A stretch of DNA of 64,000 nucleotides from Arabidopsis thaliana (lineage: Eukaryota; Streptophyta; Magnoliopsida; Brassicales; Brassicaceae), in contig NC_003071.7 of assembly GCF_000001735.4 (NCBI RefSeq), forward strand, positions 1,809,001 to 1,873,000, written 5' to 3'. The first letter of the stretch is position 1, and every line of letters begins with the position of its first letter. Below, in pieces: positions 1 to 15,699 of the stretch. The notes under the pieces are model-generated. The model saw nothing but the letters and a program-made list of their open reading frames with translations. It made no database searches and was not told the DNA's origin. Both the position numbers and the translations under genes were made by a program.

Positions 1-2493
1 CATCGCATCCAAATACATGTTCCTCATATATCTAGGACCACCTGTAAAAGTAGCTGGCAAATAACATGCTAATCCTTGATATTTCAAATCACACTTTCCT
101 TCCTCTGAAGCCTTTTGCACGGAATTGTAATTATCTGCCCTCAAACTACTCTGGTTAAGTTTGATGTAACCAAGCCGGTTTGATTCTATTGCTATATAAG
201 AATCCACCAAGAATTGCTGCCATAGCCTTTTGGACCTAAGTAAAATATGCTTCTCATGTTTCCTTTCGTGAATTCTGAAGGCAAACCATTGCCTTATAGA
301 TATGAACTTGTTCTTCTTATCTTTACCAGCCCCTGTTTGATGTTTCTCAATTCCTGTTCTGAATCCATCTTCACCATAAGGGAACAAAAGAGGATATTGT
401 AGAGGAAGATAACACGGGAGAATTTCACTAATTCTTTGTAGTTTCCCTGATTTCTCTTCCACTATTATATCTCTGCATGGTATATCTATAGTGAAGTCTC
501 CAGGAATTAACATGGCTACCTCTGATGTCGTTGGTACATTATACACCCTGCCATCAGTTTCCCGTTTACTAACTATTCTCATATGCAAAGTCTCATCTGG
601 ATTAGCGTTGAACCTGCCCCTAGCAGTCCGTAAGTGATCAACATAAGGATTGACACTATACAACAATTTGATAACAGCATCAATAATTTCCTTTCTCAAC
701 TCTTTCTTTTTGTACTTTTCAGCATTAGCACCATTACTGGTAAGAATCAAATAAGTCAAATTTAAAACAGTAACAAAAACAACATCAACTTTATAAAATA
801 CAAATTAGTAACAATATAAGGAATTCACTAACCTGAGTGCTTCCGATCTGTTATCAACTTCATTCTCTGTGTCTACAATATATAACTGCATGAACTTTAG
901 AGGTATATCATTGTCTGATCTCAAACTCCCTATCCTATGGTAGTTCTCTGAAATGTTTACTGATTTCATCGTCATTGGTTAGCAATGCATAAAGTAATTC
1001 TGGTGAATTTTTAAGAAAAGGCAACTTCACTTGACCTTGCAAACAACATGATGTAAACTTGGGCTTCTTATTCTTAACTCTCTTTTCAATACGCTCACCA
1101 TGCCACATTATAGCTCCACAATATTCACATGAGTAAATAGGATCACCATGATCAATGTATATTGCATTCGAAAAAATAAATTGTTAAATTTAAAGGCTTT
1201 CCTTTCAAAATAATATATATTCATACCTGTTTTGTTTTTTCTTGAATTCATATTAAATTGACTCTCAAACTCTTCATGTTCTTTTCCTGCGAAAGATAAA
1301 TGTCAGTAGAGCTTATATATTTGTTACAACTTTGATTGAGGATTGGAACAAAGTTTCATATAATTCAATGAGAAAGTTATTGAATATAACACACCGTAAG
1401 AATGTTCCTCTATATTTTCATTAGAGGTACGACATCCCGGTCCAAAAGTGGCAAGTAGCCTCTTCTCAAGATCATCCAAAAACTCATAATTTTTTTTAAC
1501 CAGTTCAGTAATCTCGCCATCTTTTTTTTTTTGTAGTTGGTATATAGATCATAATCAACTTCGTCTTGAAAACCATTTTCAAGATCATCATGTATATTTT
1601 CCTCTGAACCTAACAAATAAGAAATTTATTTTGTTATACATCACATATTATAGTATTTTTAAACAGAGAAGAATATGTAAATGATTGCAGTTATGTTTAA
1701 TATTTACCATCAGATTCTCCATTACTGTCACATTCTCCTAAATTCATTTGATTTCCTGATTGCAGAAATTCAGGGAATATGGGATCATGTGTTCTGTCTC
1801 CTCGTCCACAATGTGTCAACTCATTTATCTGAAGAGGAATGTCATTGGTAAAGTTTCTAAACAATCTTTTATCCTTAGACGGGTTTGATGTCTCTCTTCT
1901 TCAAAAGTTGTTGTTGTGAATGGAGAACTAAGGTAGGAATTTGGTATATGATTTCCTGAATATAACAAAACGTTAGATAGTATAAAAGGTGACATGAGAT
2001 GTTTCAAGTTTGTAAACCATAACTTACCAAAGGGATACTGAGAATCATTTGCATCTGAAGGTAGATTATCATCATATGTTAAATGCCTTCGATATGATTG
2101 AATAGGACTTGAATGATCGATTCCTGCTGCATTGTTAACATTTCATAATAAATCTTGTTAAATCTAGTTATGTTATATAGGTCAACATATAAAGATAAAA
2201 TATATAATATACATTGATCTGTAAACTTAACTTGTTTTTGATGTTAAACATGACTGCAATGTGCCAGGCGTTTGACTAATGCTTGGTGTATGAACTCTTT
2301 GATTTGTAATATCACTTAGAACACTATTAAAAACAGAACTAACTGCCATTGATTTCTTCACACTTGGTCCATTGAATGACGATGGTGTATTTTCAGATGC
2401 TTCTCCATGTCTAAACCGCTTATCAAATGTGTTTTGAATAACATTAGACAAATCTGAATATTGACTTTCAAGAATTTTTTTCCTTTTTGACAT
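1..2493 (-). CDS. Helitron RepHel (Helitron-like N domain; C-terminal part outside window)
   Basis: The reverse strand of 1-730 translates into a clear Helitron-like N domain: the stretch PLLFPYGEDGF, then FRIHER, a long helical block, and ATFTGGPRYM close to the window edge. In the family this domain precedes the HUH Rep nuclease and the Pif1-type SF1 helicase, both of which would lie left of position 1. The gene is split by introns; upstream exons sit at about 840-1120, 1410-1610, 1730-2130 and 2240-2493, the last giving an N-terminal start MSKRKKILESQYSDLS at 2493. N-terminal exon limits are uncertain because this part is poorly conserved. Role: rolling-circle transposition of the surrounding element. 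I read no stop in the 1-730 exon, but completeness cannot be judged. Confidence 0.8.
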
Positions 2494-3133
2494 GGTGAAC
2501 AAAGAAAATGAAATACAGCAAAAATGATAGCTAAACACTCATAAACTTCATCATTGAGAAATGACTGTTCTATAACATGTTAACCTACTTATGTGCTCTT
2601 TTATTTGCTTTGCGGCCATAAAAGATTTTAAGAATATTTACTGTTATGTCATTTAACTAAACTGGTTAAGATTTTCACTATTTATATGGAAACAGTTATT
2701 AATTAGTTACATGATCGAATTGATTGATCTTTATCTTATGTAAATATGGTTATTTTGTTTTCTTAAAAAGAATTCTATTATTCAATTTATAATCTATGAA
2801 GATCTTTTTTCTTTGTATAGGATCAACTCGAGGACTACAGGGAATCATTGTGGTTGTGAGAGTTTCAAGTGATATGAATTCTTCTCAAGTCTATAAGCCA
2901 TTGACTACTTATTTTAAGTCATTAACTTCTTTTTTGATTTATAAGAACTAAGATATTAACATTTCATAGGAAATTTTTGGTTAGATACATAGATTAATAT
3001 ACATAAAATTAAGCATTCTTAAACCATTACAAAATATAATAGAATCCGAACATTAAGATAGATAGAAATGTACAAAAAGAACAGAGTTTAACTTCAAAAA
3101 ACAAAAAACAAACGCACAAACTTCATCATAGTT
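2494..3133. other. Helitron interior, no gene seen
   Basis: AT-rich spacer between the RepHel start and the first RPA-like gene. No open frame of note and no repeat recognised. Confidence 0.6.
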
Positions 3134-4420
3134 TTAGTTCTCATCAACGACCTCCATCATTACATCGTCCTCTTCATCTTCAATCATGTATCCGTGGCTG
3201 CATTTCAAAATCATCTTGGCAATTAGTAATTTTAGCAATTACAATATAGAACTAAGAAAAATATGTATACTTACAGCCATGTTGGTATGTCAATTTCCTC
3301 GAATTTAGGATCGATGTATAGCTTTGAAAAGCCCCAATCACTCATGAGAACATTATTACCTGTAATGTTTAAACAAAGTTTTCTATATTAAGATGAAGAC
3401 ACAATCTATAGTATTACTTAGAAGTAAAATTCAAAGTAATTACCATGATAATTTGTAATTCTCCAGTTTTGGAGAACAACAACGATAGGTTCATAATTGT
3501 AAGTAATCAAGTTGATTCTCTTTAACCAATGGTTCACAAACCAATCACATATCTGACCAACAGCAATACAGATTACCTCGTTTCCCCTATTACAGAAAAC
3601 TCAATACCATCACTAATAAGATTATCTATGGTTATATTCTAAGAGTATAAATAGACTACGATCTATCTCATAATGAAAATACTTACACATTGTCCGCAAT
3701 GGTGAATTTCACATATCTTGCTTCATAATCTGTCTCTCTTGGACGACATACAAATGGAAATCTCCTAATGTTAGAAACCCATTTTATAATACCCATTGCA
3801 TCTGAAACATTTAATATAGAGTAAGTTGTCAGGAATATATGACAATAAAAGTGTGTTTCGGCATAAGTTACAGAAAACAGAACATCATATGATCTCAAAT
3901 ATAAAATAATAGATTACCACAAAGAAACTCCATATCCTGCGGTGCAGCATTCTCAATATCAGACGGAGCCGCAAACTCAAAAACCCTACTTCTTGAAAGT
4001 GGAGGAACATGCCACATGGTTGTTTGTCTGAGAAACTTGATCTGTTTCGAGCAAAATGAGTATCTAACAGACATTGTATTAACGACAACTCGAAAGTCGG
4101 ACATGTAATACCAAAAACCATCTTTTAGTACATCCTTGTACTTCCACAGAATGGTTCCTTCTTGAATAGTAGCATCAATTCGATTATACTACATAAAAAT
4201 ATTCAAAATCAGTAAATTTAGAAATCTAGGGTTTCGAAATCCACCAAGTCACAGTATAAAATATGCTAATATATAAAATTACCTTTGAATCGATCAGCAT
4301 AAGCGTGGTTACAACACCATCTCTTGGTGGATTGTGATGGCAGATTCCAAGAATCTTCACATAGACACGTTATTTGGTGATGTGAACACCTATGTCAGAT
4401 AAAAGATGCATCCGCTCCAT
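3134..4420 (-). pseudogene. RPA70-like OB-fold gene, copy 1 (premature stop in exon 1)
   Basis: Six-exon minus-strand gene with the same layout as the two copies to its right. Exon 1 starts MERMHLLSDIGVHITK at 4420 and then meets TAA at 4370-4372 exactly where copies 2-4 continue into the conserved VKIL strand. Exon 2 (about 3918-4188) carries the DUF223-type OB fold with FWYYMSDFRVVV. Exon 3 gives DAMGIIKWVS ... YEARYVKFTIADN, exon 4 gives WFVNHW..NYEPIVVVLQNWRI, exon 5 a short block with WGFSKLYIDP, and exon 6 an acidic tail ending at 3134. The family binds single-stranded DNA; in Helitrons RPA-like proteins are thought to help replication of the transposon strand. Only one clear lesion is visible, so a downstream start is possible, but the first OB strand would be lost. 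Confidence 0.75.
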
Positions 4421-5206
4421 TGAAATTGATAACACCTATCGCACTCTAAGCCAGAAGAAGAATCTAAGAACTGAAAAGAAGTCTGTAAACAAACACACAG
4501 AATTGTCTATTTTATAGAAGATTGAAGAGTTGCAATCATTGAGAAAACAGTTCTAGAACATCCAAAAATCGAGAAACTGAAACGTTAAATACATTTTAAT
4601 ATTATTAATATATAAATATAATATAAGCTTCCATTCTTTGCTTATCATTTTTGTTATTTATATAAACTGAATATATTAGAGAGTATATTCTTAGAATGTT
4701 ATGGTTAAGATTTAAGATATTGTTATGGAATGATTATATACATATTGATACTATCATATGAAATTATAATTTAGGCTTGTATTGTTAATTTATATGTATT
4801 ACAATTTTTCTTTTTATGTATTAAAACTTGATTTAAATTACTTAGTTCATATGCTGAGTTTTTTTTTTCGTGTATACAGATAAAGAGCTAAAGAGTGGAA
4901 CTCATCATCTCCATATAAGGTTAGATACTAAGAACTCTTATAATGCATAGGTATATTTTCTGTAAATATTGCCACTTGATTCTTATCTGCTTAAATAAAA
5001 TACTAACTTGAAGATTAAAATAGGAAAAAGATTAAACTGAAATAATGTCTTCCAAAATGAACACAATGTAAAATAAGTCTTAGAAACTTTCCAACAATAG
5101 TTCAAAAGATAAAACCAAAATAAACTTAGAATCATTTCAGTTTGATTTTTAAAAGCAATGTAAATTGCTTATACAAATGCCTCTTTAGACGAATCTGACT
5201 CTAAGA
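4421..5206. other. Helitron interior spacer
   Basis: AT-rich intergenic DNA between RPA-like copies 1 and 2. No coding signal or clear repeat found. Confidence 0.55.
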
Positions 5207-6487
5207 TTAGTCCTGTGTAACATACTCGATCCTCCCATCAACAGACCCAACTGGTTCATCTGCAAAGAAATTGCTTTAACAAAAATGTAAAAGATGTCAA
5301 ATTTCTTGAATAACTTAGTATCTAAGTCACAAAAACAATAGTCGAATGTCTTTCACATACATGTAACATGATACATCAAAGTCTGAGAAATTTTCTTCAA
5401 TGAAGACTCTTGAACATCCATACTCACTGATTAAGGCCTTAGATCCTATAATATTTGTTATCATTCTGTTGATTAGTTATATATCACAGAATTTAACATT
5501 GTAAGTAAAGAGTATAACATATTAACATATTTCAACTAACCTTTAAACATAGAAGTTCTAAAGAACCGGAGCACTGTAGTGAGTGGCTCATAGTTGTAAC
5601 CTTTTGAACCAATAAGTTGATAAAACTTTGACAGAAAAGACTCACACACAGATCCTCTAGCAACACAAGTTATAATCCTCTCACTACAACCAAAGAAAAT
5701 ACAAATTTATCATACTACACATATATGTCTATTCCTAACTAATTTCAATACCAATATAAGTCCATGATTGTTAACTTACTGATTATCTCTGATGGTAAAT
5801 GTCACATATCTGGCCTCATAGTTTGATTCCCCTTCAGGACAGCAATATGGAAAACTCGACACAGTTGAGACAGTTGTTATAACTCCAATAGCATCTAACA
5901 ATAACAGAACAATAAGTCAGTATTAATCCAAATATTAGTACTAGGGAATTACAATTGCAAGAAACGTTATACTATAAAATTAAGACTTAAATTACCGACT
6001 ACATGATCGTCAGATTCTCCATTGACTTCATCTTGATGAATGAATTGGAGAGAACTTTCTTTTGCTCTATCACTTACATGCCACATTTTAGTGTGCCACA
6101 TAAACTCAATTTCATAATGAAAATCTGTGTACTTTGGTATTGTTGTTGCTCTCTTCAATCGAAAGTGTTGAAGGTAATACCACTTTCCTTCAAATAGAGT
6201 AGTCTTAAAATTGTTCATATACTCGCCCCAAGGTATTCTAGCATCGATTCTGTTTCCCTGAATAAAAAGAGAACCATATAAAATTCGTTGGTAAATAAGA
6301 GAAAGCTCAAACCAAAATAACAATTCAAATATACATCATAGATACTAACCTTCACGTCACAGAGGATCATGGTACACAGAGTTGGTTTGTTCATAGACTG
6401 CAGATCCCAGATGCTTAATATTTTCACATGTAGAACATGATTGTTCGTGTGTAAATTTAGATCTGGGATATAGTTTCTCTCGGCCAT
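5207..6487 (-). CDS. RPA70-like OB-fold protein, copy 2 (intact frame)
   Basis: Six exons read without a stop: exon 1 6348-6487 (starts MAERNYIPDLN, with the strand HVLHVKILSIWDL), exon 2 about 5995-6258 (KWYYLQHFRLKRA, HVSDRAKESSLQFI), exon 3 about 5780-5895 (DAIGVITTVS ... YEARYVTFTIRDN), exon 4 about 5541-5685 (NYEPLTTVLRFFRTS), exon 5 about 5361-5445 (EYGCSRVFIE), exon 6 down to TAA at 5207. Two OB folds corresponding to RPA70 DBD-A and DBD-B can be recognised; the C-terminal zinc-ribbon OB fold of full RPA70 is missing, so this is a short form of roughly 300 residues. It lies inside the Helitron, in the same orientation as RepHel. The function is inferred from family: binding single-stranded DNA. 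Confidence 0.8.
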
Positions 6488-6600
6488 TGGAAGTTAGGAT
6501 ATTAATTTTAGCAGATTTTTGTAAAAAGATAGATTGAGGGAAGTTAACCTAATATTGCTCTTATATATATATTGAAGTAGCACGAGGAAAGAGGAATATA

Positions 6601-6676
6601 GATTCACTGAATATATATGAAAGGTTTCTTGCTATATAGATTCAGTGAATATATATGAAAGGTTTCTTGCTATATA
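6601..6676. repeat. 38-bp tandem duplication
   Basis: Two adjacent copies of a 38-bp unit beginning GATTCACTGAATATATATGA (second copy GATTCAGTGAATA...), each ending in TTTCTTGCTATATA, just upstream of RPA-like copy 2. They differ by one base. The remainder of 6488-7162 is AT-rich without a gene. Confidence 0.85.
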
Positions 6677-7162
6677 TCCGTTCAAATCATTTAGTGAATA
6701 TAAGAATAGATACTAACCGATTCTGTAGCCAATCACCATATATAAAAGTCTTTTTGCTAATGATTGCTGATATGTTAAGTAGATAATGACTAAAAGAAAG
6801 TATTTGGATTAAGCAAGGATATAAATAATGGTTGATTATGGTTAAATTCCAAAACGAATTTTTAAATATTCTATCAAACCAAGTTAGTTAATACATACTA
6901 ACATTGTTGCCTTATTCAAATTTCAGGAATTTGAAGTCGGAGAAGATAGCACAATCCATTAAGGTTAGATGATTCTTCTTTTAATCTTGTCATTAAAGTT
7001 CTATAGTGTTGTAAAACATTTCATTTTAAAAATTGTTAAACATAAGGATGCATTAGCAAACAACTTTAAAGTAGTCACAAGAAATCCAACTTACATCATA
7101 TGAAAATAACATAGTTCAACAAACATAGCATCATTGATTGCTTATACAAATCAATGAGCATA

Positions 7163-8535
7163 TTACAACTTAGAAATTGGAATCAACACTCTCCATGAAA
7201 ATGTCATCATCCTCATCATCTGATCCTGCAAAGTTACTCCTATGAAACAGATACCAAATACATACGAAGTTAATGTATATATATACTTGTAATGGAAATT
7301 ACAATATAGGGAAGAAGGCTGTAAATTACAGATAATTGTTCTTGTCGATTCCTCGAAAATTTGGATCAATGTGAACCTTTGAACACCCATAAACACTTAT
7401 CAAGCATGGTTTTCCTGATAACCAAACAAAAGAATTTGAAAATCATAAATATCATGATCTCGAGATATTATCATCATCTGAAATCTGAAATGATTCAAAT
7501 AAGAAAAGTACCTTCAAACTCTGATATTTTCCAGAAACGAAGAATAATCATCACAGGCTCCATCTTAAAATTAGGTTCACTTATTTTCTTGTACCATTTT
7601 CTTTCAAACTCTTCACAAGAACTTCCTACAGCAACACATTTGATGTACTTGTGCCTATAATATTAAGTGTACTCAGAAAATATTAAGAATCTACTAACTA
7701 TCTTTCGAAATAATATAGAAAGAAAAAAATCTTACATAGAATCTTTCAAAGTGAACACCAAGTATCTTGATGCAAAGTCACTCTCCCAATCTCTAGCAAC
7801 CCAAGGTATCTTCCCGATGGGAGATACTGATTCAATTACTCCCATTGCATCTGAAATTGAACATACAAAGGTTCAATTGTTAAATGGTATTGATCTTCAT
7901 CCAAATCTTTTGTTTCAATGAACCGAATATCACTTACAAAAAACTCACCAACAACAAATTTCTTTTGAATAGGAGCTGCGTGTTTGATAGTATGGAAATC
8001 AACACACTCAATGAAATGGTATCTACTCTTAGGCGTAACAGGTTCCATTGTAGTCTTTTTCAAAAACTCAATTTGGAACACATGAGTAGAGAATCTTTCA
8101 AGTGGATTAGCTACAACCACTTTGAAGTTTGAGAGTATATACCATTTTCCTTCTCTTAATGTAGAAATCATTTCTTCTTTGTATGCATGTCTTGAAGACT
8201 TAGCATCGATTCGATGTCCCTGAGATCATATATAAATTCATAGTGAATCTATATGGAGTTTTCACAATGATAATCATAGTCTTTTTAAATATATAGAGTA
8301 TAAATATATGTAAAAATATTGCATGGATTTAAAATCTCCAAAAGATCAGGTAAATAACAACTGAATACAAAATATAACTGCAAATAGATTTTCATACCTT
8401 CTCATCAACTAAAATCATGGTAGGTTCTTCCCCGAAGTAATTAGGAGGCCAATTCCACAACCTCAGTATCTTAACAAATACAAAAGCACGGGTTTTTTTA
8501 GGACGCAAGTCAGAAAAGGTTTTGAAATTCAACAT
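7163..8535 (-). CDS. RPA70-like OB-fold protein, copy 3 (intact frame)
   Basis: Six exons, no stop found: exon 1 8398-8535 (MLNFKTFSDLRPKKTR, strand FVFVKILRLWNW), exon 2 about 7948-8220 (KWYILSNFKVVVANP), exon 3 about 7736-7852 (DAMGVIESVSPIG ... SRYLVFTLKDS), exon 4 about 7511-7655 (KWYKKISEPNFKMEPVMIIL), exon 5 about 7332-7417 (VYGCSKVHIDPNF), exon 6 with an acidic segment and TAA at 7163. The exon structure and the position of the conserved DAxGVI, FTLKD and YGCSKVHI blocks are the same as in copies 1 and 2, so the three are tandem paralogues created inside the element. The C-terminal zinc OB fold is absent. Predicted role: single-stranded-DNA binding during Helitron transposition. Confidence 0.8.
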
Positions 8536-9141
8536 TTCCAGAAGTTCTCTAACGCTTGAAAATGTTTTCTCTGTACAGGAAACTGAAAGAGATAAGGAGA
8601 GAGTCTATTGATCTTTCCAATAAACGTAAGTTCTCAAATTTTCGAAATAAATTAAATCTGATATGAATTTTCAGAGTTCAACCAATGAATGATTACTTTT
8701 TTTTGAATTTAGACAGATTCTTTTGAGTATTTCAAGATCCATTGATCTTTTAGATATATGCATAAGCTATATTTCACAATATTTATTATACATCACATCT
8801 TACTTTATATTATACACAACTACATAATATAGCTTAGGTAGGAAATTAGGATACCAGTCTTGAAGATTATTCTATAGTTTCATCTGTTCCAATTTAACCT
8901 TGAAACAGATATTCACAGTTGTTATGATAATGAATCTAGTATAAGAGTATAAATATGTAGTTGCATTCTAAAAATTAAAGTTTTTCAATAAAAACCATTG
9001 TAAATAGAAATACATGTAAAAATATAAAATTCTCTTAATACTTATTAAAAAACTTACTGAAAAAGGTAAACCAAATCAGAAATTCTGACTTTTATTAAAT
9101 CCAAAACAAAATAAAGAACATGAAAACAGAATACTAAAATG
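8536..9141. other. Helitron interior spacer
   Basis: AT-rich DNA between RPA-like copies 3 and 4; no gene or structured repeat recognised. Confidence 0.55.
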
Positions 9142-11701
9142 TTATTCCTTGTATCTTTTTGTCTTCACTTTGGTTAATCCTTTAGTTTTTGAGGCTAGAG
9201 GATCGATTTCGTCAACTACTCCTGCAGTCAGTAGACTTCCAGCGTCATCCTTGATAATTTTCAACTCATCAGCATTTTCTATTATCACGTTGGTTCCAAT
9301 CTCATCATCTCCATTTTCTAAGTTAACCCTAGAGCATAACTTCTTAGAAGTACTCGATTGATCAACTATATCTATTAAATCAGCTGAACCACACTTAGAT
9401 GAAGGAGTACTTAGTTCATTATTCGTAGCATCAGAAAAGTTCTCACAGCTATTTGTTAACATCAACGGACCCTAACTCACAAAATAGAGAAATATATAAG
9501 TTTTAGAGTACAAAACAGCAAAGAGCATCACAAATTGTATTAAGTTGTTTAGTCATACCTGTTCCTCAGAACCAATGGTTAGTGGATCATCCTGAGTGTT
9601 TTCAAGCAAACCTGATTCTTCTTTGGTTATATCTATTCCAAGATGCACCTTTGTAACTTTGTGAATATCTTTGCCACCATAAATATTGGCTTTCTCAACA
9701 CTTACCAGAAAATGGAATGTCTTTCCACACAAATTAGTGATTACATCAGGTTTGATGGTAGGATCTTCAATCTAAAAACATGACGGACATTATGATTAGT
9801 AATCTACATTAATAACATAAACGTATCTATACCACTAAGAGAGTGACAATTTGTATAACATATACCTCTTCGTATTGTCCATCTAATAACTCTTCAGAAG
9901 ACTTTCTAATGAGATTGGTTGCATTATTTTCAAACACCATGAGCTTAATTTCACCTGTCTGATCCATTACACGAATATGAAGCTTGTACCTGGAGTAAAG
10001 TGAATTGTACATATCAAAATAATCTACACTGGTAAACCTGTTTACTCTATTAAAGACTTCTAGGAGACATAATTATTTTATATCTTTTACAAATTATAAG
10101 AGTAAATCTTACCTTGCCTCAACATTTGTGATGCTCTCCTGATATTTGTCACACCAAAACTTAGGTTTCGTAGGTGCTTGGATCCTCTTAACAGTACTGG
10201 TTGATTCTTTAACCAACTCAATTTTTCTGTTACATTTAGGACATCCAAAATAGAACCATCCCCAGTCGGTATCAATGGCAAAAATGGAACCAAGTATTCT
10301 CCACTGCCCAACCTGATTTACAATTTCAAGACAATTGGTTAGTACATAAGCTAAACACAGTAATTGAGGATTTAATTCAATTATACTTACATCTCTCCCA
10401 TTAAGTAAATCAACAATTGTTTTGGCAGGATAATCGAAAAAATCAACTGATTTAGTCTTAATGATGTCACGGTTTACATAACTGTCCTGAATAGTTAGAG
10501 CAAGGCCATCACTTGGTAGTCTGTTAAGAAGCAGATGTTTGGTTAACATGTTTGTGAAGTTAAGCAGAACAATATAAGTCATAATTTAAATAAACACTCA
10601 CGATTTGACGAACAGATCCACCTCAGGAACATGAACCGGATGGATGATGACATCCGAAACATCAAAAGCACTTGTAATACTAATCTCACCTAGTTCACAG
10701 AATTAGACAATATATGTTAGACATGCAAATATACATCAATTATGATACTTTAGACATATTTAAGGGAAGAGTGGATACTTTTGAAGTTATTGATTTTAGC
10801 ATAGCGTATAAGGACAACTGTCTTCTGGTCATGCTTAACACTTTTTAAAGCACTGAATACTTTCTCAGCAAACACACCCCACAAAGTGCAAGACAAAAGC
10901 TCATTGCTTCAATATAGAAAACATGAACAATATTACTTCAACTGAACAAATAACTGCTATATTGCAAAATTATTGAACACGAACTCTGAAGACTTGCCTG
11001 ACATCTCTTATTTGAAACTCAAGTTTTTTGTTTGGTTTGTTTTGAGCAACAATCTCATCAACTTTACCAACACTGACCACTTGACCTAATATGTCTGCCA
11101 TTGTAAAGATTACTCTGTTACTATTAAAATACATAACAAAAGATAGAATTTGAGTTAAAACATGATAGGGAATTTAGAAAATACTAACCAATTAGAACAT
11201 TCTCATCATAACTCTCGGTCTTAATCCCTTCAAAGTCCGCAAGATCAAGAAAAACACTATCCGATACAGAATCACATTTACTCACTTCAGTGTTGTGCTT
11301 AAAGCCCATGGGATAGCTCAAACTCGATATCTTGTACTTGCCAGTGGAAGGACTCAAATTGAAGTTATCAATGATCTTCCAATCACCGACCTTCAATGAC
11401 CTGTGAAACTTGCCAATATAATGCTTTCTAAGAGTGACCTGCATCTTAGATCCCTATATCAAACGAAAGAAATAAGGAGAAACATTAGCATATGTTGTAA
11501 TGAAACTTCTTGAATTAATATAGATTCATATATATAATCAATAGCACTCAAGCATACATTTTCATCACATATGATGACATCTAACGTTTCTACATTATCT
11601 TTGGTTTGCCTCCACAGATGAAGAATCTTGACTCGCACACGCCAATTCGTTTTGAAAGGCTTGACATCACTAAGATACGTTAAGCCTAAAGGTAAACTCA
11701 T
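9142..11701 (-). CDS. Full-size RPA70-like protein (three OB folds, degenerate zinc ribbon), copy 4
   Basis: About ten exons on the minus strand, first ATG at 11701 (MSLPLGLTYLSDVKPF, strand WRVRVKILHLWRQ) and TAG at 9142-9144. Exons 1-5 supply the DBD-A and DBD-B type OB folds (KVGDWKIIDNF, LADILGQVVSVGKVDEIV, LEFQIRDV, TVVLIRYAKINNF). Exon 7 (10112-10312) is the zinc-ribbon OB fold of the third domain: WFYFGCPKCNRKI has the first Cys pair, but the second pair reads WCDKYQ, with Tyr where RPA70 has the last Cys. Exon 8 continues the fold (MDQTGEIKLMVFENNA). The last two exons give an acidic, low-complexity tail ending in basic KVKTKRYKE. It is the RPA copy closest to the Helitron 5' end. RPA70 family proteins coat single-stranded DNA; here a role in transposition is inferred. 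Confidence 0.8.
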
Positions 11702-12392
11702 TGATCCTATGTAGACTACGACGAAAAGTAATCCGAGTTGGTTTAGATTTGATGCTATTGATTCAATATTTATACTAAATTAATTACAGTTGAAGCCCTA
11801 AACCACACCCGAAATTTATGGTAATGGAAATCACAACTCAATATCTATCGTAATCGAATATAGGAATAATACATGTTTGGTTGTGATCGCAGAATATATT
11901 TTCGCAATATTGAATATCTAGGAGAAGCGGCAAAATATTGAACTTGGCAGGATCTTGAAGAGACCAGTTGGATTCGTCGAGTTGTAGGTAATATCCATTT
12001 AAGATATCAATCAGAGAATATTATATCTCTTACGGATTTGGGAAATTCAACTTATTAGTTGGGATTTGGAGAATATTGTAGTTCTTCAGAGAATATATTA
12101 GAGAAGAGGGAAAATCAAGATCTTCTCTGTGATTTTTTGAGGCGAGATTTCACGTGTTAATGGGCCAAATGACGCGTGAAGAAGAAAAAAAGAGGCCCAT
12201 TACGTCTAAATGAAGATCCGCGTGTTTCTGTTCAGGGTCGGATTCACGGACGGCTTGGGTCGGCTCAAACGCAGGAGGAAATTGACCTTTTTACCCTTAA
12301 TTCGTCTTTTTTTTTTCCTATAACGTGAAATTTAAAAACGGCTTATGTGGCTTGTAATTTTTCTGCCCCTCATTCTCTCTTAATAGTATAGA
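11702..12392. promoter_or_regulatory. Helitron 5' region, presumed promoter of the first cargo gene
   Basis: 690 bp between the first RPA ATG and the element terminus at 12392. It contains a GC-richer patch (12215-12285) unlike the surrounding AT-rich DNA. No core promoter could be fixed with confidence. Confidence 0.4.
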
Positions 12393-13566
12393 TTTTATTT
12401 TCTTTTTGATTTTTTTATTGTGTTCGTATATCTACGACGTTAACGTGGACCTTAATCCAATTTTTCTTTACAAAAATCTTAGCAATGGTTTTTCATAGAA
12501 AAAATGTTACAAAACCAAATATGATGGATCAAATGACAAAAAAATGTTACAAAACCAAATATGACAAAACCAAATTGACCTCGACGGCGATGAACCTTGT
12601 TTTCTCTGCTTTGTGTCGAGGAGAAGCTGAAGAAGAGATGTAGTTTTTGGTGTAATTCCATATATTAGATAAGGGTATTATTGACATTTTACAATTTTGG
12701 CTGAATCAGCTTCAGCAGAATGAACCGATCAAACTCAGTCAGATTTTCTTCATTCTTTGGATGAGTTTAGAAAAAATCATTCAACTAAATCATTTAGATG
12801 ATCTATGAAAAACAAACATCAGTTTTCATCTTCATTGAGATGGTTCATCCAAATGATCTATCCAAAAAATCCATTTCGATAATTCATCTTAATGATGTTT
12901 GTTTGACGCTAGCGACTCATGTTAGCGACTCATGTTAGCGACTCAAAAACAACTTTACTTTTAATTAAATTTGAAACGAGCGACAAGTAACAGGTTAAAG
13001 ACGGTGATCAATTAATGATTTTTCAGTCGCCGCGTTGGTATTATTGATCGCCGGAAATTTCAGCGACCAGCATCACCTTCAGCGAATCAGCGACATAAAA
13101 TTTAGAAAAGAAATTCTCTTTTCACCACAACCCATCGACATAATTAAAGAAGATACAATGTTATTTTTAGTCGTTGCAAGTTGTCGCTGGCGACAAGGAA
13201 AAGAACATAGTCGAACCTTTTTGTTTTTTGCGACTTGCGTGATTAAGAAGAAAGAGAGATCACAAGATCGAAAGAAGTATCGAGAGGGACCACAAAGTTC
13301 ACAAGTTCTTCGAAGAATTCACAGAAATACCATTGACTTTATATATTTTTTCAAAAAAAATAGAATATAAGGTTTCTCTTCAACGTGTGCGTGAGATGAA
13401 TGAGGAATCTAAGTAGGACGCTGATGAAGATCTCGTAGATATCACACGTAGAGAACTAAACATGATATTCTCAACCTGACCAGGGAAGATAAAGATTGCG
13501 CGAAAATTTAAATCTTTCTCCCAAAGTGGAAGATTTCTTTCCATTATTATTCCTTCTATGAAGACT
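12393..13566. other. Non-coding, repeat-derived stretch
   Basis: Short direct repeats are visible: a 28-bp unit beginning AAAATGTTACAAAACCAAAT at about 12501 and again at about 12540, and three copies of TTAGCGACTCA-like units at 12907-12945. The short words AGCGAC and GTCGCT recur on both strands to 13240, which suggests an old inverted-repeat transposon. I cannot name it. Short open frames here have no recognisable domain. Confidence 0.4.
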
Positions 13567-14217: not shown

Positions 14218-14448
14218 TACTTTTACGGATAATAACAGAGAACATAACAGGGTGGTGTGGTTCATTAAAGGTTTTTTCTGGTGCCAAAACAAACTCACCT
14301 GCATCTGTGAAACAAAATCTTTCATCACGATTCAAAAAAAAGTACCCACAAAATAAAAATCATTAAGTACCAAACTCACATAAAACACCAATAAGTACAT
14401 TCACGACTTTACAAAGCAGAGAGATTATGAAGCAAATACATAAGATAA

Positions 14449-15331
14449 TTAATTTCCGGGGACAAAGTTAGTAGCGTAAGACCAGGCGTTGTTAGCCACA
14501 GGATCAGCCAAATGATCAAATAAGTTCTCAATGGGACCTTTACCAGTAACAATGGCTTGGACAAAGAATCCAAACATAGAGAACATGGCAAGACGACCGT
14601 TCTTAAGCTCCTTCACCTTCAGCTCAGAGAAAGCCTCTGGATCCTCAGCCAAGTTCAATGGGTCGAACGCACCTCCGGGGTAAAGCGGGTCAAGCCCTTC
14701 TCCGAGAGGTCCACCTCCGATTCTGTAGCCTTCAATGAACCCCATGAGCACAACTTGAACAGCCCAGATGGCTAAGATGCTTTGCGCGTGGATCAAGTTA
14801 GGGTTTCCGAGGTAATCAAGACCTCCTTCTGAGAAAATCTGAGAACCTGCCTTGAACCACACGGCTTCTCCGAATTTAACACCGTTCTTGGAGAGAATCT
14901 CAGGGAATGTGCATCCGAGAGCACCCAACATAGCCCATCTGCTGTGGATTACTTCAAGCTCACGGTTCTTAGCGAATGTCTCCGGGTCAGCCGAGAGTCC
15001 AGCGGTGTCCCAGCCGTAGTCTCCGGGGTATTCTCCGGTTAGGTAGGACGGTGTATTCTCCGAGAATGGTCCTAAGTACTTGGGACGGTCTGGTCCGTAC
15101 CTGTTACAAGATGAATTTGGTGATTAGACATATCTGAAAAGTTAATGATAGGTTAGGTAAGAGCCAGAGAGAGTGGATTTGGTACCAGATGCTTTGAGGA
15201 GTAGACTTGACGGTACGACGCATGGTCACACGGCCACCACCGGATACACCAACCTTGCGGAGGAGTTCGTTGGAGGGCTTGAGAGCCGTTTGGCCGGCGA
15301 AGGAGGATTGCTGGATAGCTGATGTTGCCAT
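14449..15331 (-). CDS. LHCB2.1: Light-harvesting chlorophyll a/b-binding protein of LHCII, type II (LHCB2)
   Basis: Two exons, 15186-15331 and 14449-15100, joined by an 85-bp GT-AG intron, give 265 residues, the usual LHCB2 length. The N terminus [19 protein letters not shown] is a chloroplast transit peptide; the mature start contains [20 protein letters not shown] with the Thr phosphorylated in state transitions (family knowledge). Three membrane helices follow: helix B with [16 protein letters not shown], helix C with [20 protein letters not shown], helix A with [20 protein letters not shown], including the chlorophyll-ligand Glu and Arg ion pairs. It binds pigments in the thylakoid LHCII trimer. 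The frame is intact. Arabidopsis has three near-identical LHCB2 genes; position beside the Helitron helicase argues for LHCB2.1, but 2.2 cannot be excluded from sequence alone. Confidence 0.96.
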
Positions 15332-15560
15332 TATCGTAATCTTTTCGTTAACTACAATGAAAGGAAAGGAGATAAGAGAGAGTGTGAGTTATGGATGAGA
15401 TGGTGAAACCAATATGGTTTTATAACAGAGAAGGCGTTCATGTTAGAGGGTTATCAAATGTACATGTCAGTGAATTCTGATTGGTTGAGAGAGTTTAATC
15501 GAGATTTCGAAGATTTCCTTGGTCCTAATAGAAGATTGGTAGTGGCTGTGGTGGTGCCAT
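15332..15560 (-). promoter_or_regulatory. LHCB2 promoter and 5' leader
   Basis: On the minus strand: TATA box TTATAAAACC at 15416-15425, about 85 bp upstream of the ATG; a CCAAT motif at 15480-15484; an I-box core GATAA at 15451-15455; and two AAATCT words (15502-15507 and 15511-15516), the core of the CCA1 site known from Lhcb promoters. These fit light- and clock-controlled expression, known for the family. The window leaves only about 370 bp between the ATG and the next transposon. Confidence 0.65.
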
Positions 15561-15699
15561 CTGGCAGTTGAAGATCTTGTGGTTTGTAATAAGTGACACT
15601 GATTTTTAATTGGATTCTTTGTGATGATGATATCTCAATATCTTGTATTGTGTTTACTTTTTTCTTCTTTCTTTCTTTTTGCTAAATATGTGAATCTTA

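Follow-up and report, generated by a model that had tools for sequence, protein, structure and literature searches.

A decayed Arabidopsis thaliana Helitron from a family with one full-size and three short RPA-like genes ahead of RepHel

The window analysed here is a stretch of 64,000 nucleotides of Arabidopsis thaliana contig NC_003071.7 (positions 1,809,001 to 1,873,000; this contig is called C2 below). We found that its left end is occupied by a Helitron on the minus strand, which extends beyond the window and spans C2:1804018-1821392 (17,375 bp). From the 5′ end, the element carries four RPA-like genes, here named D, C, B, and A, and then RepHel, all on the same strand. With a probability of roughly 0.85, it represents, in decayed form, an Arabidopsis Helitron family with the genes D, C, B, A, and RepHel, a 3′ hairpin, and a CTAG end, whose own RPA proteins would coat the single-stranded intermediate of transposition.

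Ends and insertion site

The 5′ terminus of the element (TCTATACTATTAAGAG..., window 12363..12392, minus strand) starts with TC at window position 12392, and its outer neighbor is a host A. On the minus strand, this host A is followed by TCTATACTATTAAGAGAGAATGAGG from position 12392, and a longer read of the same boundary gives TCTATACTATTAAGAGAG after the host A. The preliminary description, made from the letters of the window, had placed a canonical Helitron 5′ end at this base, and the placement was right. It had also expected a Helitron 3′ end within some 10 kb to the left. Such an end, CTAG with a hairpin, was found 4,983 bases beyond the window: at C2:1804018, the element closes with ...CCCGGGCGAAGCACGGGTTATCCATCTAG, and a host T follows. 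The 3′ stem-loop has a folding energy of -6.8 kcal/mol (z -3.28), and an equal or better fold was obtained in 2 of 200 shuffles. In sum, the element has the TC and CTRR ends of a Helitron, a hairpin shortly before the 3′ end, and an insertion between A and T with no target-site duplication.

Searches were made in the window's own genome (119.66 Mb, seven contigs), the sole plant genome used. The 5′ 100 bp had 11 genome matches, namely the copy itself and 10 others with 78-91% identity over 44-100 bases; four family members besides the window copy contain this stretch, at 91, 88, 86, and 78%. Similarly, the 3′ 100 bp had 11 matches, including its own copy, with 89-91% identity in four other family members. 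When the two flanks were joined (140 bases), 22 matches were found. Two were the flanks themselves. The other 20, with 71-82% identity, crossed the joint, and in one case the crossing extended just 7 bases; several exceeded the query in length and hold insertions. Since these 20 paralogous sites are uninterrupted, the window element lies within a dispersed repeat whose other copies are without the insertion. With identities of 71-82% and some length differences, the joined-flank matches do not locate the joint to a single base, and the ends were placed at this precision by TC, CTAG, and the A/T neighbors. A chance 5′ end was ruled out by the recurring 5′ 100 bp together with the joined-flank matches.

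Several repeats were also noticed around the element. The stretches L009:338-1613 (in L009, a region to the left) and window 14352-15620 lie on either side of it in the same orientation and are 90% identical over 1,290 bp; we take them to resemble LHCB2 chlorophyll a/b-binding genes. Two pairs of shorter patches, L009:4674-4767 with window 12571-12664 and L009:2763-2822 with window 12847-12906, flank the element at 90-93% identity. Because their order is reversed, they are probably copies of another repeat and lie outside the gene duplication. In addition, there is a long GA microsatellite at L009:4441-4613, about 400 bases beyond the 3′ end of the element.

The four RPA genes

Gene D (9142..11701, minus strand) is the full-size form, with 10 exons and an open frame of 572 aa. 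It is RPA70-like, as known for plant Helitrons with RPA, and contains DUF223 (DBD-A), REPA_OB_2 (DBD-B), and Rep_fac-A_C (DBD-C); no RPA70N domain was listed for D by Pfam. The three short genes lie on the same strand. Gene C (7170..8535) has six exons and an open frame of 278 aa, with a DBD-A/B-like part and an acidic C-terminal tail. Gene B (5207..6487) has six exons and an open frame of 269 aa. Gene A (3134..4420), also short and with an acidic tail, follows the same six-exon plan as C and B and contains an in-frame stop at codon 17, in exon 1. This codon is sense in all four other copies compared, and the copy L045 has lost that part of the exon. The splice models of D, C, and B use GT/GC-AG introns, including one GC-AG intron in D. 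Thus, the four same-strand OB-fold genes of the preliminary description, three short six-exon paralogues and one full-size form, are all present as spliced models, one of the short genes (A) being broken.

DUF223 was found in all four genes, and Rep_fac-A_C and REPA_OB_2 passed the Pfam cut-off only in D. REPA_OB_2 was below the cut-off in C and B and was unlisted for A. Among solved structures, D matched those of RPA70 DBD-A/B, 4gnx, 1fgu, 1jmc, and 8rk2 (7e-15 to 2e-6), and a profile of C, B, and A matched 1jmc and 1fgu at 1e-3 and 4gnx at 0.019. The short genes of the window are far from each other: B is 33% and A is 38% identical to C. Furthermore, the acidic tail is kept in slot C (GSDDEDDDIFMESV-D/E-SNF) and in slot A (IEDDEDDVMMEVVEEN, with variants), and the short gene of element L053 has a tail similar to those of slots C and A. 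No clear acidic tail was seen in slot B of the copies compared. The fourth cysteine of the D zinc ribbon is a tyrosine in the window copy and a cysteine in all 10 other loci covering the site.

RepHel and decay of the window copy

RepHel starts at window position 2493, and its 5′ part, with the start of the Helitron_like_N (Rep) domain, occupies 1..2493 on the minus strand and continues left of the window; its last long open stretch runs to about L009:6415 (C2:1805415). The Helitron_like_N domain had been named earlier at the left edge of the window, and the search leftward for Rep and helicase located both. In a Pfam scan that covered three pieces of RepHel, the Rep domain (PF14214) was at C2:1808642-1809288 and the PIF1 helicase (PF05970) at C2:1806365-1807030. 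A RepHel protein is recognized by an HxH motif and two tyrosines in its Rep part. Reading the translation by eye, we found PHAHILIWL (HxH), KYIFKYIHKG (two tyrosines), and GFGGTGKT. The protein therefore combines an HUH Rep with two tyrosines and a PIF1-like helicase.

However, the uninterrupted coding capacity expected of an autonomous Helitron is absent: there are stops in A exon 1 and in the helicase, and a Cys-to-Tyr change in D. The helicase stop is in frame, between L009:6754 and 6750, upstream of an MTINKSQG motif. The same helicase region is stop-free in three helicases of other lineages, and at a fourth locus, L042, the search motif found no match. Because of the stop in A, the helicase stop, and the lost zinc-ribbon cysteine of D, we regard the window copy as decayed and probably no longer autonomous. 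Over the exons compared it is nevertheless the best kept of six copies, as each of the other five has stops in four to eight of its matched exons. This ranking is biased toward the window copy, from which the exon queries were derived, and the queries do not cover the sites of its two stops, in A exon 1 and in the helicase.

Other elements and their RPA genes

Exon-by-exon tblastn on fetched regions showed the D-C-B-A order in six elements, the window copy and five more. These are at C5:14.66 (L045; A exon 1 unmatched), C1:15.77 (L046), C3:13.01 (L047; D without its 5′ part), C4:4.16 (L048; no match for the last exons of B and A), and C5:12.89 (L049 and L050; about 8.7 kb, mostly unfetched, between C and the matched B). 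Both ends were matched in four of the six, namely in the window copy and in the C1, C4, and C5:12.89 elements, so the further copies with the same boundaries that had been looked for do exist. The 5′ end was unmatched in the C3:13.01 element, and the 3′ match was only partial in the C5:14.66 element. A seventh member is likely at C2:4.55, judging from search matches alone. The recurrence of D-C-B-A in at least five other copies makes it a family trait and no oddity of the window copy. The preliminary description was correct that the four-gene array exists, but the arrangement that it called unusual is shared by five further elements of the same genome, and uniqueness to the window copy was ruled out. 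In addition, the two ends of the family were matched (86% and 80%) on one strand, about 3.1 kb apart, at C2:2118114-2121245, which is possibly a non-autonomous derivative.

The RPA content of other Helitrons varied, as had been assumed for plant Helitrons in general. For instance, D alone lies ahead of RepHel in L054 (weak matches), L059, and L060, and D with one short gene in L053, L055, and L058. Two further elements have the order D-B′-C-B ahead of RepHel (L056 with L051, and L057 with L052, the last gene of the latter being incomplete). These counts come from 14 elements, a sample relative to the 67 genome matches of the Rep domain, which are matches and not elements. In the L055 element there was an additional short-gene match downstream of the helicase. 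We also noted short RPA matches downstream of a helicase on the same strand at C1:13384813-13385534, C5:12687507, C3:11767352, C3:11508655, and C5:13244891. Such matches 3′ of the helicase indicate that the position of RPA genes relative to RepHel varies, too.

Phylogeny and origin of the RPA slots

In a tree of 42 rows, the short genes grouped together (100/98), and so did the D genes (98/98). Within the short genes, slot A of six elements (100/99), slot C (100/100), and slot B with B′ (99/100) formed groups of their own. The tree program issued a warning about two long branches, leading to C and to D, that meet. Left out of the RPA trees were B of L050 (fewer than 120 residues matched), L054, and the D stretch of L052 (exons 7-10), for which L057 was used. 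Because a gene in any of the four slots groups with its counterparts in other elements, the duplications are older than the dispersal of the family. This contradicts the earlier suggestion of tandem growth inside the window element.

The tree also bears on a host origin of the array, in which ordinary genes of the plant, or pieces of host RPA70 taken up by capture, would happen to lie next to or within a Helitron. Helitrons do capture gene fragments, according to the excerpts of one study (PMC3288121), and the genome has host RPA70-type genes. However, the Helitron copies are separated from the three host RPA70 genes used by a 100/100 branch, D-C-B-A is found in six elements together with the family's ends, and 20 repeat copies matched by the joined flanks are uninterrupted. 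A host origin of the array is hardly tenable, and we considered it ruled out by the shared order and ends, the branch, and the empty sites; the view of the preliminary description that these RPA copies are not host genes is upheld.

The history of the D-B′-C-B elements is less simple. In the Rep tree (24 of 30 loci, each with at least 250 residues matched), the Rep of the C2:3.91 element (L036), 53% identical to the window Rep, grouped with two-gene elements (99/97), and its placement in the window-family clade was rejected (AU p 3.5e-6). The D genes of both D-B′-C-B elements, whose rows fill 41% and 44% of the columns, behaved like Rep, at a p value that was not significant (AU p 0.055). By contrast, C and B are close to those of the window family. 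The C exons of the C2:3.91 element are 56-86% identical to the window family, half of exon 2 matching B better (44%), and its B exons are 70-82% identical except the last (40%). Its B grouping received 100/98, and the nesting of B of the D-B′-C-B elements within the window family was not significant (AU p 0.19). From these comparisons we propose, with moderate confidence, that a C-B cassette was exchanged between Helitron lineages, a reading that leans mainly on Rep.

It is also conceivable, and in our judgment rather unlikely, that the C-B cassette goes back to a common ancestor and that relatives of the C2:3.91 and C3:14.52 elements have since lost it. The AU tests for the D and B slots, both not significant, agree with this. 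On the other hand, the Rep of the C2:3.91 element is only 53% identical to that of the window at C exon identities of 56-86% and B exon identities of mostly 70-82%. Within the family, RPA diverges more than Rep, so shared ancestry predicts a lower identity for RPA. The number of RPA genes appears to have grown stepwise in some Helitron lineages. Between the window copy and L045, synonymous divergence is about 0.28-0.33 in the four RPA slots and 0.10 in Rep, a mismatch that may reflect mosaic elements or a mutational effect.

Selection on the RPA slots

Pairwise dN/dS was calculated with the Nei-Gojobori method and a codon bootstrap. Between the window copy and the other five elements, dN/dS was 0.24-0.38 for D, 0.27-0.40 for C, 0.33-0.57 for B, and 0.29-0.39 for A, and between the window Rep and three others it was 0.36-0.43. 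The bootstrap interval was below 1 in all 23 comparisons with the window copy (20 for RPA, from four slots and five elements, and three for Rep). When all 60 RPA pairs were taken, including those among the five more decayed copies, 39 had an interval below 1 (14 of 15 for D, 13 of 15 for C, 7 of 15 for B, and 5 of 15 for A). Point estimates above 1 occurred in 5 of the 60 pairs, every one in A or B. Judged from these ratios, the four genes look constrained by purifying selection between the window copy and the others, and comparisons among the other copies show this less clearly in A and B.

One may ask whether C, B, and A are mutually redundant and, without separate roles, only raise the dosage, more RPA simply coating more single-stranded DNA. 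We regard this as a serious possibility, short of even odds. The exon plan is common to the three short genes, their number differs between lineages, and the constraint on A and B is weaker than that on D and C over all pairs. Against this, the slots are old separate clades, with B and A just 33% and 38% identical to C, the tails are slot-specific, and each slot is constrained in comparison with the window copy.

Proposed mechanism and relation to known Helitrons

For the reading that we prefer, a family whose own RPA proteins coat its intermediate, established knowledge of Helitrons suggests that RepHel would nick the TC and CTAG ends and unwind one strand. The resulting single-stranded intermediate, about 17 kb long, would be coated by the RPA proteins that the element encodes. 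In host RPA70, DBD-C mediates trimer formation, and D, with its DBD-C zinc ribbon, may resemble the trimer-forming RPA70 core. Because the short forms A, B, and C are without DBD-C, they should coat independently of RPA32/14. The acidic tail of bacterial SSB contacts partner proteins; by analogy, the acidic tails of slots A and C may contact or recruit RepHel. A division of labor among the slots, as the preliminary description had raised, is plausible, and it fits both the selection on each slot in comparison with the window copy and the differing domain make-up. A more elaborate version would be a modular coat of single-stranded DNA, in which short two-OB paralogues, two of the three slots having an SSB-like tail, act beside a three-domain RPA, with slot roles kept and C-B cassettes swapped in a phage-like manner. 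We offer this version as tentative and on the doubtful side.

The short RPAs could also be anti-host or regulatory factors, acting for example against host RPA, silencing, or repair, and not proteins that coat the intermediate. Being without DBD-C, they might compete for DNA with host RPA and yet form no trimers. However, the short genes remain near RepHel inside the element in several lineages, and we consider such a role improbable.

Several known systems are similar to the window family. Host RPA70 of the same genome has the same DBD-A/B/C OB-fold architecture as gene D and lies on the opposite side of the 100/100 branch. We found no description of a four-RPA Helitron array in the literature searched, which did not include the founding paper of 2001 or Repbase, and an earlier description is possible. 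The window family is, we presume, very probably catalogued already. In 2001, Kapitonov and Jurka reportedly described Helitron families of the same plant, with the same kind of ends and with RPA-like proteins. Maize ZmhelB1/B2 (PMC3288121) and the sister family of rice Mothra (PMC4683698) share with the window family, in the excerpts of these papers, the TC/CTRR ends, the 3′ hairpin, the A/T insertion, and RepHel with an RPA70-like gene. However, the same excerpts describe each element with a single RPA gene or set of RPA domains, and the window family has one three-domain and three two-domain genes with separate models. Excerpts of another study (PMC4067079) mention, in the plural, additional RPA-related ORFs in plant Helitrons, which weighs against the novelty of the array. 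The same excerpts describe Helentrons as rolling-circle elements with an RPA gene, and the mite RPA treated there resembles the short forms of the window family in comprising DBD-A and DBD-B. The defining feature of Helentrons is an endonuclease domain fused to RepHel; the likeness noted here concerns the rolling-circle type and the RPA gene. Arabidopsis Helitrons were treated in general terms in the excerpts of a further paper (PMC7385966). The D-C-B-A Helitron is new at most as a variation on the known RPA-carrying plant Helitrons.

If the cassette exchange is true, element trees built on RepHel only would miss part of Helitron history. The acidic-tailed short forms are concrete candidates for RepHel partners. 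Furthermore, Helitron lineages with one, two, and four RPA genes, whose slots form clades, offer natural comparisons for asking why plant Helitrons need an RPA of their own.
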